From: a virus
Direction: 5' to 3' (one strand)
Length of the DNA stretch: 28,172 bases
Virus record (IMG/VR): IMGVR_UViG_3300030616_000067
Coordinates: 1-28,172 of that record
The notes beneath the pieces are model-generated. The model saw only the letters and a list, made by a program, of their open reading frames with translations. It made no database searches and was not told the origin of the DNA. Of this stretch, positions 15,553-28,172 are shown in pieces (position 1 is the stretch's first letter; every line of letters begins with the position of its first letter). The translations under genes and the position numbers were made by a program.

Positions 15553-16017
15553 TCATACATTATTTAAATACTTTTTATTATGTAACTCTTGGTTTGTTTG
15601 TCTTCCATCTGTATATCCTTTGTTGATATGATAATTACCTACATTACAATATATCTTAAATCTTTTAAGACCTAAAGATTCTTGTACCTTAGTAGCCCAA
15701 TATGATAACATCATCTTATCAATTGGTCTTCCATTTATTTTACATTCAGACCTGAAGTTAGCTATCATTATTAATTTCTTTTTGTGTATAAGAAACTGTA
15801 TGCTCAAAAGACAGGCATAGTTCTCATTATTATGAGTCATTATAACTTCTTGTCTTGAATCTGGATTATTCTTTAAGTTCTCTATAAGCTTAGGAAGTCT
15901 ATGCTCTACTCTTCCTTTATAACAGGTTTCATCTACAATATCATTATATTGAATATACTTAAATGTATGTATTGGATTATAGGATATAGTATAATGATAA
16001 TTAATCTTAGGCTTCAT
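15553..16017 (-). CDS. Short thymidylate synthase-fold protein, possible cytidylate (hydroxy)methylase
   Basis: A 154-residue protein that aligns with the core of thymidylate synthase. LKNNPDSRQEVIM matches the LK.DPDSRR phosphate-binding segment. C69 sits exactly 20 residues before R89-S90, as C146 does before R166-S167 in E. coli ThyA. The motif RSECKINGRPID aligns with RSCDVFLGLPFN, keeping Gly and Pro but with D100 in place of Asn177. H130 lies 41 residues after R89, as His207 after Arg166. Asn-to-Asp at this place is the known difference in dCMP hydroxymethylases. It lacks the N-terminal 100 residues and the C-terminal end of full enzymes, and Tyr209 is Asn. It may modify dCMP, have another nucleotide role, or be inactive. 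Its ATG overlaps the stop of the lipoprotein gene. Confidence 0.75.
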   Translation of the reverse strand: MKPKINYHYTISYNPIHTFKYIQYNDIVDETCYKGRVEHRLPKLIENLKNNPDSRQEVIMTHNNENYACLLSIQFLIHKKKLIMIANFRSECKINGRPIDKMMLSYWATKVQESLGLKRFKIYCNVGNYHINKGYTDGRQTNQELHNKKYLNNV

Positions 16018-17551: not shown

Positions 17552-18703
17552 CTATAGGCTATATTTAGTTAATTTAAATTTATGAAAATTCTCTCTCAAA
17601 GCCCGCTCGATATCTCCTCGAAATTCTTTCGGAAAATATAAACTATCGTGAACTGATAAGCACCCGTTCTCCACGAATTCATTACAAACCGGTATAAATA
17701 TCGAAGCTTCTAATTTTTGAAGAGATAACCAGATTTCCTCAGTACTTTTCTTAATCTTTATTAGTTCATATACTTCAGGAAATTCCTTTGAAATGAGTTG
17801 TTGAGCTGAATTAGTTCCTTGATTTTTTTTGTATAGATAGTTGAAGAATAGCTTTTTTGCTAATGTTCTTGATTCATCGTAAGAAAAGATATCAGTAAAT
17901 CCCCAGTTTTCTATAAGCCAATCGTATAAATCACTATCAGTAACTAATTCATAAAATCTTTGTACTTCTTTATTATTAGGATATTCTTGAAGTAAAAGAG
18001 ATGAAAGGAGATAAGGTTGAGAGGACTTAAGGTCAAGAGAATCAAGCGGCTCACCTTGGTATAAACAATATTCTCGTAGTTCTTTCTTCATTAAATTAAA
18101 AGAAGTGAATATTCTTCCGGTTCTTTCATCCTCTGTAACAATGATATTCTCTTTATTATGTATTGTAATAATATCTCGAACTACTCGTAAGAACTTTTCA
18201 TTAGAAAATTGTTTAGCAAAAGAAATAGCTTTATTCATATCAATTTCTAATGATTTGATTGTATTATAATGTTTAAGTAGAATAGGGTCTTCAGGTATTT
18301 TTGAGTATTTGTAAATTATGTTATAAGTTTTTTCAGAAATCTCACAAAAAATAAGTTCAAATTCTTTATCAATTACTTTAGAAGTAAACTCATTTGTATA
18401 TCCATAAGATTTACAGTAAGGTTTATGCTTATAATTAGAATAAGATGTAGAAGTAATAATATTTAAGTACTCTAAAATATCAATCATTTTCTTAAATTTC
18501 CATTGACCATTAGACCTACCAAAATTGTTTCGTATATCTCTTGGTAAAGGGACTAAATTATTCTCTTCATTTGATTTTTCAAGAACATAAAAAAGGTGAA
18601 GAAAGTCTTCTTTTTTTAATGACTTATCATAATAATCTTGAAGTAATTCATCAATAAGTAGTATAAATCCTTTTGTAAAATAAATGCCATATTGTTTTTG
18701 CAT
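17552..18703 (-). CDS. Minimal family A DNA polymerase-like protein
   Basis: A 383-residue protein whose second half carries the family A polymerase signatures in order. They are TGRIFTSFNL at 195-204 (E. coli Pol I has TGRLSS.DPNLQN); motif A LDLKSSQP with D224; motif B R279-xxx-K283-xxx-F287-xxx-Y291, the exact spacing of R754/K758/F762/Y766 of the O helix; and motif C VHDS with D353. The N-terminal 190 residues do not resemble a 3'-5' exonuclease, and the fingers and palm are very compact. It probably copies DNA, perhaps for origin priming, repair or whole-genome replication. The HDS form of motif C also occurs in single-subunit RNA polymerases, so an RNA-primer role cannot be ruled out. 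Two large hairpins lie directly upstream. Confidence 0.8.
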   Translation of the reverse strand: MQKQYGIYFTKGFILLIDELLQDYYDKSLKKEDFLHLFYVLEKSNEENNLVPLPRDIRNNFGRSNGQWKFKKMIDILEYLNIITSTSYSNYKHKPYCKSYGYTNEFTSKVIDKEFELIFCEISEKTYNIIYKYSKIPEDPILLKHYNTIKSLEIDMNKAISFAKQFSNEKFLRVVRDIITIHNKENIIVTEDERTGRIFTSFNLMKKELREYCLYQGEPLDSLDLKSSQPYLLSSLLLQEYPNNKEVQRFYELVTDSDLYDWLIENWGFTDIFSYDESRTLAKKLFFNYLYKKNQGTNSAQQLISKEFPEVYELIKIKKSTEEIWLSLQKLEASIFIPVCNEFVENGCLSVHDSLYFPKEFRGDIERALRENFHKFKLTKYSL

Positions 18704-18723
18704 TAATTAATAATTATTTTAAT

Positions 18724-18777
18724 AAAAATCCTTATTAAATACTCCTACGTACCAAAGTTTCTTTAATAAGGATTTTT
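18724..18777. repeat. Large hairpin 1 upstream of the polymerase-like gene
   Basis: A perfect inverted repeat with arms AAAAATCCTTATTAAA (18724-18739) and its complement (18762-18777), and a 22-base loop. The arm sequence is almost the same as that of the neighbouring hairpin at 18801-18901. It could be part of an origin or a two-way terminator with a long loop. Confidence 0.8.
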
Positions 18778-18800
18778 TGAAACACTAAACGAATATTTTT

Positions 18801-18901
18801 ATAAAAATCCGTAGTAAAAAGAATAAAAGAATAAAAAAAAACTATATAATGAAATAATGCAGTATCTACGAAATGTATATTCTCTTACTACGGATTTTTA
18901 T
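18801..18901. repeat. Large hairpin 2 with matching arms
   Basis: A perfect 17-bp inverted repeat: ATAAAAATCCGTAGTAA (18801-18817) and its complement (18885-18901), with a 67-base A-rich loop. Compared with hairpin 1 the arms differ at two sites (T to G on one arm, A to C on the other), so pairing is kept. The A-rich loop could be an easily melted region. Confidence 0.8.
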
Positions 18902-18923
18902 TATATATTATTTTATTATTAAG

Positions 18924-19097
18924 CTAATTAAAAACATTATCATATTCTTCACCCCAATCATTAAGTTTATTTATTAAAGAACCATAATATTCTATTTCAT
19001 CTTCATTTAAATTATCATCATAATTAATAGGATCTTTTTTCCACATTTCTATGATATCTTTTCCTGAATATCTAATTGTAGGACTGATATCTTCCAT
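18924..19097 (-). CDS. Small acidic hypothetical protein
   Basis: A 57-residue frame from the ATG at 19097 to a TAG at 18924. The protein starts MEDISPTIRYSGKDIIEMWK and is strongly acidic (DDNLNEDEIEYYG, WGEEYDNVF). It has the same kind of A/T leader as its neighbours, including the element at 19111-19153. No family recognised. Its stop lies 23 bases from the second hairpin. Confidence 0.55.
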   Translation of the reverse strand: MEDISPTIRYSGKDIIEMWKKDPINYDDNLNEDEIEYYGSLINKLNDWGEEYDNVFN

Positions 19098-19110
19098 AAT
19101 TCTATGATAT

Positions 19111-19153
19111 TTTATTTTATATATTCATATCATTTTTGTGAAAATTGCCACTT
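19111..19153 (-). repeat. Leader element, copy 2, overlapping the HNH gene end
   Basis: 39 of 43 bases match 17318-17360. Here the AAGTGGCAATTTTCAC part is the coding end of the HNH endonuclease (KWQFSQK-stop), and the GAATATATAAAATAAA part is the leader of the 57-residue gene. Confidence 0.75.
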
Positions 19154-23754: not shown

Positions 23755-25332
23755 TTATCCACGTGTTAAATATTGGAATTCCTTAAAGTAGCTTAAATTT
23801 CTATCAACAATTACATTCTTTGAATAAACTGAAAATACAATTCTTAATGGTTCAGGATTTCCAAAGGCAAATACTTCAGCATAAATAACCTTTTCATTTT
23901 TTCTTAAAGGATATTCAAATTTAAGATTTGAATTTTTAACTCTGTATAAGAATATCCCATTTACATATTTTTCTATAAATTCTCTTTTTATATTATATTC
24001 TTCACTATAATAATATTCTATTAATGTATCTGCCATACTTAAGTCTTGTAATGATTGTAATGAATTTTTTAGAAGTTCTATATTATTTTTAAATTCAATT
24101 TTATTCTTAGTAATTTCTTCCATATTACTTTGAAGCTCTACATCTTCAATATATTCTTCTGCATAAAGTTTAAGAATTCTTTTACGTTTTGATTCTAACT
24201 TCTGAATTTCATTCTCATAATATGTAATTTGTTGTTTTTTATTTTCAATATTACTATTACTTATTACATCTTTATGAACTTGTATCATACTATCTTTATG
24301 AAAGAATAATTGTTTATAGATAACTTCATCTACTAATTCTATTTTTAAATAACCAATTGATTTACATTTCTTATATCGATCTCTATCTCCTAAATCTAAA
24401 TAATATGAATATTTATCTATTGTATTAGTTTGTGTAACAAATGAATATCCACAATGACCACATTTCATCATTGACTTAAATAAATATTCATATTTTGTTC
24501 TATTAATATATCCTATATTATCTTCAAATCTTTTTTGTGCTTTATCCCAGGTTTCTTTATCTACAATTGCAGGTATTGAAATTACAACATCTCTATATTT
24601 TCTTTCTCCTTTATAAATTGGTCTTTTAACCATTCTTCCAATAACAGATGCTTTCCAAGTAATATCAACCTCTTCACCTGTATAAAGTTTTCTTGTGATT
24701 CCTTGTATCTTTTTTCTTGTAGGAATATTTAGACTATTAAGTTCTCTGGCTATTCGATTAAGTGCCCATCCTTTAATAATCCAATCATAAATTTGTCTTA
24801 TAATTTTAGATTCTTTATCATCTATTTTTAGATATCCTTTATCATCTTTTGTATATCCATAAGGAAGAGTGCTATATCCTATCGCTTTCCCTTTTTTAAC
24901 TGCAGCCATTCTACCTCTAACACCTCTTTCAATAAATGTATTTCTTTCCATTTCTGCCATACTGGATAAAATAGAAAGTAACATTGTGTTTGCTGCATTA
25001 TCAGAAATAGATGAAAGGTTTTCTTTTTTAAAATGAATATTGACATTATGTTTATTAAAGAAGTCAATTTCATTTATTGTCTTTACCATAGATCTTCCAA
25101 GTCGAGAGATTTCCCAAATACCTATATTCTTAATATCATTATCAAGGACATATTGCTTCATTGCATCATACTCCTTGCGTTCAGCATTCAGATCATATCC
25201 TGAAACTTTTTCTCCAAAAACTCCAACAACCTCAAATTTATTTAAGGTTGCCCATTTTTTTAAGTCTTCAAATTGGGACTCATAATCTTGGTCCTGTGTT
25301 GAGACTCTACTGTAAAGGACTATTTTTTCCAT
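23755..25332 (-). CDS. Large serine recombinase (phage integrase type)
   Basis: A 525-residue protein. The N-terminal resolvase domain has the nucleophile S11 in YSRVSTQDQD, the arginine motif EISRLGRS (75-81) and the helix MAEMERNTFIERGVRGRMAA (125-144). The recombinase domain follows (PYGYTKDDKGYLKI, ALNRIARELNSLNIPTRKK). A zinc-ribbon region has C291, C294 and C323, one Cys fewer than usual. A long coiled coil spans about 360-430. This architecture is that of integrases that join attP and attB without high-energy cofactors, so the phage is probably temperate. A DNA invertase role is a less likely alternative, since no inverted fibre segments were seen. It ends near the two-way terminator. 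Confidence 0.92.
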   Translation of the reverse strand: MEKIVLYSRVSTQDQDYESQFEDLKKWATLNKFEVVGVFGEKVSGYDLNAERKEYDAMKQYVLDNDIKNIGIWEISRLGRSMVKTINEIDFFNKHNVNIHFKKENLSSISDNAANTMLLSILSSMAEMERNTFIERGVRGRMAAVKKGKAIGYSTLPYGYTKDDKGYLKIDDKESKIIRQIYDWIIKGWALNRIARELNSLNIPTRKKIQGITRKLYTGEEVDITWKASVIGRMVKRPIYKGERKYRDVVISIPAIVDKETWDKAQKRFEDNIGYINRTKYEYLFKSMMKCGHCGYSFVTQTNTIDKYSYYLDLGDRDRYKKCKSIGYLKIELVDEVIYKQLFFHKDSMIQVHKDVISNSNIENKKQQITYYENEIQKLESKRKRILKLYAEEYIEDVELQSNMEEITKNKIEFKNNIELLKNSLQSLQDLSMADTLIEYYYSEEYNIKREFIEKYVNGIFLYRVKNSNLKFEYPLRKNEKVIYAEVFAFGNPEPLRIVFSVYSKNVIVDRNLSYFKEFQYLTRG

Positions 25333-27462: not shown

Positions 27463-28172
27463 TTATTTTAAATTTCCGAAGGCATACCATATATTACTAC
27501 CTTTATGAATAACTGATGCTGCAGCATATTGGTCTCGAATTACTACTGAACCATCTGTTGTATATAAAGTTGTTGTTGCAGATAATGTAATATCTCCTAA
27601 TCCAGAATTAACAATTGTAGTTTGATATCCTGTATTTAAAGAATCAGGTAATGTAATTGTAAATGTACCTGATGCATCAATTAAATTATTTGCATTTAAT
27701 GCAGCTACAGTATAAGCTCCTGTAATTCCTTGAACTGTTGCGTCACCTTCTCCTTGAGTTCCTTGAGAACCTGTAATACCTTGAATTCCCTGTATACCTT
27801 GAATTCCCTGTATACCTTGAATTCCTTGAGTACCTTGTGCTCCTTGAGAACCTGTTATTCCTTGAATTCCTTGAGAACCTGTAATACCCTGAATACCCTG
27901 AATACCTTGAGCTCCATCAGTTCCTTGAGAACCTGTTGCTCCTTGAGAACCGGTGATACCTTGTATACCTTGAATACCTTGTATTCCTTGTGTACCTTGA
28001 GTTCCTTCACCTGTTATTCCTTGAATACCTTGTATACCTTGAGCTCCATCAGTTCCTTGAGAACCTGTTGTTCCTTGAGAACCTGTTGTTCCTTGAGAAC
28101 CTGTGATACCTTGTATACCTTGAATACCTTGAATACCTTGAATACCTTGAGCTCCATCAGTTCCTTGAGAAC
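27463..28172 (-). CDS. Collagen-like tail fibre, C-terminal part (runs in from the right edge)
   Basis: Open to the right edge. On the minus strand the first 150 or so codons are Gly-X-Y triplets of the same types as at 1-424, including the GTDGAQGIQG unit. The last 88 residues are a globular end, GAYTVAALNANNLIDASGTF, then TITLPDSLNTGYQTTIVNSG, TLYTTDGSVVIRDQYAAASV and a closing WYAFGNLK. This end is typical of phage fibre tips after a collagen shaft. The codon phase at the right edge is the same as at base 1, so this is very likely the second half of the gene starting at 424. Confidence 0.82.
   Translation of the reverse strand, partial: SQGTDGAQGIQGIQGIQGIQGITGSQGTTGSQGTTGSQGTDGAQGIQGIQGITGEGTQGTQGIQGIQGIQGITGSQGATGSQGTDGAQGIQGIQGITGSQGIQGITGSQGAQGTQGIQGIQGIQGIQGIQGITGSQGTQGEGDATVQGITGAYTVAALNANNLIDASGTFTITLPDSLNTGYQTTIVNSGLGDITLSATTTLYTTDGSVVIRDQYAAASVIHKGSNIWYAFGNLK

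Follow-up and report, generated by a model that had tools for sequence, protein, structure and literature searches.

A predicted exonuclease-less family A-type polymerase of a temperate siphophage and its relatives in Bacteroidota integrative elements

Described systems and the polymerase gene of the window phage

Family A DNA polymerases such as E. coli Pol I, Taq and apicoplast PolA are covered by the Pfam family PF00476, and the text of a 2026 survey of bacterial polymerases lists only the groups PolA1, PolA2, PolA3 and PolA1-like (Timinskas et al., PMC12926913). The T7-type RNA polymerases, especially the small, split RNAP II of phage N4 (gp15/gp16; PMC4496689), have in common with the protein reported here the palm/fingers superfamily, the R..K of motif B and the HDS of motif C. 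Among mobile elements, pipolins are integrative elements with a primer-independent PolB (PMC7385651), and the self-synthesizing elements named in the literature that we compared (polintons, casposons and pipolins) have B-family polymerases.

The DNA analysed here, called the window, comprises the 28,172 bases of an IMG/VR virus record. An open reading frame occupying exactly positions 17552-18703 of its minus strand begins with ATG and encodes a protein of 383 aa (P0001), and the plus strand of the same interval has stops throughout. From the translation, family alignments, an AlphaFold2 model and Foldseek matches, P0001 appears to be a minimal family A-type polymerase. The original prediction had placed the core motifs of such an enzyme in order along the protein, and each was found at its predicted residue number within residues 195-354. 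These are, all on the minus strand, the TGR motif T195-G196-R197 (18113-18121), motif A D224-L-K-S-S-Q229-P with the catalytic Asp and a Gln at the steric-gate position (18014-18034), motif B or O-helix R279-K283-F287-Y291 (17831-17869) and motif C H352-D353-S354 (17642-17650). The region Q329..E332 (17708-17719) aligns to PIQGSAAD of Pol I and is equivalent to Q849.

The window genome is that of an HK97-type siphophage, with Pfam matches to capsid, prohead protease, portal and terminase large subunit and nearly all genes on the minus strand. Pfam also identified a serine recombinase (23755-25332) and an HNH endonuclease, along with a glycosyltransferase, a methyltransferase and a short protein like thymidylate synthase. 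The last (15553-16017, 154 aa) is much shorter than a normal ThyA, and an equivalent-looking ORF occurs in the sister contig L097. No replication gene was found among the window proteins scanned, PF00476 (PolA) and PF00136 (PolB) were absent from the window and six sister phage contigs, and the window had no tRNA and no Rfam match. L097 opens inside a host gene of the magnesium chelatase/YifB-like kind and continues with the recombinase, and is thus an integrated prophage; the window phage, a temperate siphophage, has a serine recombinase and is not a tRNA element. The record is likely complete, and 27 bases are common to its ends (1-60 and 28113-28172), inside the collagen-like repeat of a long tail gene. 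This repeat may have led the assembly to close the record into a circle. Upstream of the polymerase gene, the intergenic stretch 18704-19130 is AT-rich and almost identical in a sister phage (425/427 columns). It contains a perfect 17-bp inverted repeat (18801-18817 and 18885-18901; no strand assigned) with a related repeat nearby, a candidate origin/operator or terminator pair.

A divergent family with a predicted Pol I-like core

Searched as a single sequence, P0001 had no credible counterpart in Pfam, PHROGs, NCBIfam or PDB, and PF00476 matched neither P0001 nor the three relatives scanned. Matches of residues 248-295 to Pfam DUF1374 (E 3e-4) and NCBIfam AcrID1 (E 3e-4) were rejected as chance, being confined to one sequence, absent from the three relatives scanned and overlapping the conserved O-helix. 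Using tblastn, we retrieved two giant phages and one Hymenobacter plasmid (E 0.003-0.07), which we take as genuine relatives because the four-way alignment with P0001 has the blocks GR, D-x-x-x-S-Q-P, R..K, Q..E and HDS in common. An iterated scan then recovered 99 relatives from GTDB genomes and 83 from IMG/VR, mostly about 20% identical to P0001 overall. The nearest were phage contigs, mostly of 20-32 kb, with 98%, 65% and about 30-55% identity, and together with P0001 and a further 31.7-kb contig they formed a well supported clade (100/98), the deep forks of the family tree being without resolution. Genome and virus labels changed 9 and 8 times on this tree against 36 and 32 times with shuffled labels, so the gene has clustered by element type, with some exchange.

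On this sequence evidence, the P0001 family is a large, divergent and real family, a group of its own outside PF00476, and no group like it is described in the text of the polymerase survey (PMC12926913). The distinct polymerase group anticipated by the original prediction was thereby borne out, but P0001 is one of its many members rather than a founder. The idea that the group is used by small phages is not supported, as most of the relatives found reside in Bacteroidota chromosomes and integrative elements or in large phages. A search of the open-access literature, with subscription papers and most preprints outside its scope, gave no description of the family or of A-type self-replicating integrative elements, and an earlier description is possible.

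Conservation was counted in an alignment of 113 non-redundant members, and a 111-row alignment (A4) served for AlphaFold2 and pattern counts. R197, D224 and K283 were each kept in 112 of the 113, Q329 in 110, E332 in 113, H352 in 110, D353 in 111 and S354 in 104, and D[ILV]K[NS]SQP was the motif A pattern in every row of A4 (111/111). R197 and D224 lay 24-30 residues apart (median 27). In motif B, for which exact Pol I spacing had been noted, R279 and K283 were separated by 4 in every member and K283 and Y291 by 7-9 (median 8). Motifs so nearly invariant across 113 relatives, with such rigid spacings, are not chance occurrences, and their conservation strongly suggests that P0001 is an active polymerase.

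With the 111-row alignment, AlphaFold2 modelled P0001 at pLDDT 94.3 and pTM 0.90, compared to a pLDDT of 36 from the single sequence. In this model the motif A strand (218-224) ends at D224, one helix (275-291) holds R279 to Y291, and the hairpin of motif C (349-358) has H352-D353 at its turn, which does not contradict the palm that had been expected for D224 and D353. Foldseek against the PDB placed Pol I-type DNA polymerases at ranks 1-14, mostly at probability 0.99-1.00, with apicoplast PolA the sole match at E<=0.001 (best E 1e-3); against a viral library, the top named match was 'Putative DNA polymerase I'. TM-scores to whole Pol I structures were low (0.25-0.39 of the query) because P0001 is a short core. 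Profile comparison with hhalign covered 110 columns against host Pol I, in register (P 0.0017), and 30 columns against T7-type RNA polymerases (P 0.011). In the former, R279/K283 fell on R754/K758 of Pol I, Q329 on Q849 and the HDS on its HDE. The similarity to Pol I is weak, with a probability of 5-16% in local mode, and hence the assignment to Pol I rests on predicted fold and motifs. The model supports P0001 as a Pol I-like polymerase with a family A-type core and predicted palm and fingers.

The P0001 family thus resembles family A DNA polymerases in its predicted palm and fingers, TGR, motif A Asp, R-x3-K-x3-F-x3-Y O-helix, HD of motif C and Q849-equivalent, with motifs A, B and C in Pol I order and spacing. 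It differs in having no 5'-3' or 3'-5' exonuclease domain, a thumb remnant of about 45 residues and a putative winged helix in front. The absence of an exonuclease had been foreseen, and the roughly 185 residues before TGR were unmatched by any family model or PDB profile. The length of 383 aa, which had been considered far shorter than usual, is so only in comparison with the ~880-aa host Pol I and is normal within the family (360-626 aa, median 448). The N-terminal ~130 residues (18314-18703, minus strand) have helices 31-43, 55-59 and 69-79 and strands 83-85/99-102 in the model, a helix-helix-helix-wing pattern with weak Foldseek matches to the DNA-binding domains of CodY and Phr. Profile searches of this domain gave no credible DNA-binding match, the top one being a 34-residue ribosomal-protein stretch (E 0.0026) with no stretch passing alone. 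The predicted structure is consistent with a winged helix that may bind DNA, possibly at an origin.

Relatives in large phages and tRNA-bounded elements

Family members also occur in large and giant phages of up to 735 kb (some above 700 kb), the virus records carrying them being possibly incomplete. A B-family polymerase was also encoded in 6 of the 9 large phage or element records with a family member, and in the one giant phage whose gene order was inspected, a PolA gene lay directly downstream. As giant phages thus also have PolB, or an adjoining PolA, the family member is not the sole replicase there. On the Hymenobacter plasmid a protein of its own is annotated for replication initiation, which together with PolB in giant phages rules out that the family acts as sole replicase everywhere.

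The chromosomal relatives were nearly all from Bacteroidota; in a sample of this phylum, matches at E<=0.001, several of them weak, came from 22 of 297 genomes. A tyrosine integrase, belonging to one cluster, was present within 3 kb of the polymerase in 33 of 63 representative genome loci. At eight loci the polymerase gene lies between a tRNA gene and a perfect 40-99 bp repeat of that tRNA sequence, which bound complete elements of 5.3, 6.0, 8.1, 8.8, 9.3, 10.8, 12.2 and 13.5 kb that usually contain a tyrosine integrase (L036:5915-11301, L054:6235-12338, L072:5830-13975, L044:2965-11832, L053:4971-14316, L042:4418-15300, L016:3363-15613 and L079:1571-15101), and a ninth locus had only a 20-bp repeat. 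A related genome of the genus Pedobacter has the flanks of the 8.8-kb element joined, with a single copy of the repeat, a clean empty site. In the two smallest elements (5.3 and 6.0 kb), integrase and polymerase are accompanied by just two other sizeable ORFs. These elements are apparently undescribed as a class.

In their recombinase, tRNA-overlapping att direct repeats, restriction-modification cargo and own DNA polymerase as a core gene, the elements of the relatives are similar to pipolins (PMC7385651). The pipolin polymerase is of the B family and self-priming, whereas the P0001 family is A-type and its self-priming would be a guess. The window's own element, a temperate siphophage, also differs from pipolins in its serine recombinase and its lack of a piPolB gene (no PF00136 in the window or sister phages), and tRNA-overlapping att repeats with a recombinase were found only in the relatives of P0001 (the eight elements).

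Proposed function and competing explanations

We propose, at a probability of roughly 0.6, that P0001 is the element's own replication protein, a competent polymerase devoid of exonuclease with family A palm and fingers behind a winged-helix-like N-terminal domain; for the family as a whole, we infer a replicase or initiator function. The N-terminal part might, as a guess, bind the element's origin or fork, the palm would copy DNA by two-metal catalysis through D224 and D353, K283 and R279 on the O-helix would bind the incoming nucleotide and Q229 would act as sugar gate. Lacking proofreading and having little or no thumb, the enzyme may start synthesis (possibly by self-priming, again a guess) or copy short stretches, and the host replisome would take over after it. 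A replication role is supported by the absence of any other recognised polymerase from the window and six sister contigs, the association with integrases and tRNA elements and the minimal gene content of the smallest elements, and the PolB of giant phages leaves room for a role in priming or repair. We consider it possible, though on balance doubtful, that the family forms a deep branch of family A-like polymerases which start DNA synthesis at an origin, defining a class of self-replicating tRNA-targeted Bacteroidota integrative elements that would be the A-type counterparts of pipolins and casposons, with the gene exchanged with temperate and giant phages.

Motif A (DLKSSQP) and HDS had been noted to be unlike ordinary Pol I, and the family indeed has Q and not E at the gate and S and not E after the HD of motif C. 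The gate position (D+5 in motif A) is E in 7/7 Pol I sequences (the E710 steric gate), G in 5/5 RNA polymerases and Q in 112 of the 113 family members; the Y766/Y639 position is F in 82 members and Y in 31, and the Q849/H784 position is Q. In T7 RNA polymerase, an R-G-R motif lies about 110 residues upstream of motif A. A minimal single-subunit RNA polymerase serving transcription would explain the S of motif C, and the likeness of HDS to these enzymes, pointed out from the letters, is true (HDS in 3/5 RNA polymerases in alignment A6, S354 in 104 of 113 members). The best PDB profile match of the family was moreover phage N4 RNAP2, at a non-significant E of 1.1, and mitochondrial POLRMT was the first RNA polymerase in Foldseek (rank 15, E 0.018). 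This explanation is nevertheless very improbable, as the gate Gly, M635, Y639 and H784 of T7-type enzymes are not the norm in the family, TGR precedes motif A by 27 residues as in Pol I, hhalign covers just 30 columns and there is no promoter-recognition domain. A Gln rather than Gly at the gate together with the Pol I-like positions favours a DNA product, and we favour a DNA polymerase with an altered gate over an RNA polymerase. An inactive polymerase-like protein acting as a DNA-binding regulator would suit the short chain and an N-terminal domain that may bind DNA, yet it is scarcely credible when about 97-99% of members, despite their great divergence, retain both catalytic Asp, the Lys of motif B and the His/Gln set.

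A stronger competitor, though unlikely, is a primase or primer-making initiator that would synthesize a short primer of RNA or DNA at the origin and leave elongation to host Pol III, similar to a ColE2-type Rep or an AEP primase-polymerase but with a Pol I-like fold. The short, thumb-poor core with a putative DNA-binding domain and the lack of DnaB in the six sister phage contigs agree with it, and it would explain the presence beside PolB in giant phages; Pol I-type enzymes are, however, normally primer-dependent. It also overlaps with the replication-protein reading, and sequence cannot cleanly separate the two. Slightly less probable still is an accessory DNA polymerase for repair, gap filling or translesion synthesis, which would account for the co-occurring PolB, the adjoining PolA gene and the missing proofreading and full thumb. 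Against it, the polymerase is the sole candidate DNA-metabolism gene besides the integrase in the 5.3- and 6.0-kb elements, where a pure repair enzyme is unlikely to be a conserved core gene, and the small phages have no other recognised polymerase.

If P0001 is indeed a replication protein, small integrative elements and temperate phages with a widespread A-type polymerase of ~400 residues as their core gene would represent a separate replication strategy and offer a very small polymerase for biochemistry. The family also bears on the divergence of DNA and RNA polymerases within the superfamily, because it mixes features of both, and it would explain how Bacteroidota islands with restriction-modification and other defence genes may replicate. 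At other loci, genes near the polymerase encode type I, Eco57I-type and N6/N4 methylases, GmrSD and a sacsin/NOV protein, which suggests that the tRNA/integrase elements carry defence cargo; those at L074, L090, L019 and L050 (HsdM among them) mostly lie together with an integrase. An AAA_24 ATPase and a DUF3871 protein form a pair beside the polymerase in about ten loci (e.g. L019:5245-7087) and may be a replication or recombination module. In a Dysgonomonas element (L013:3165-5345), a protein of 726 aa that is helicase-like by eye and has no Pfam match is encoded directly upstream of the polymerase.
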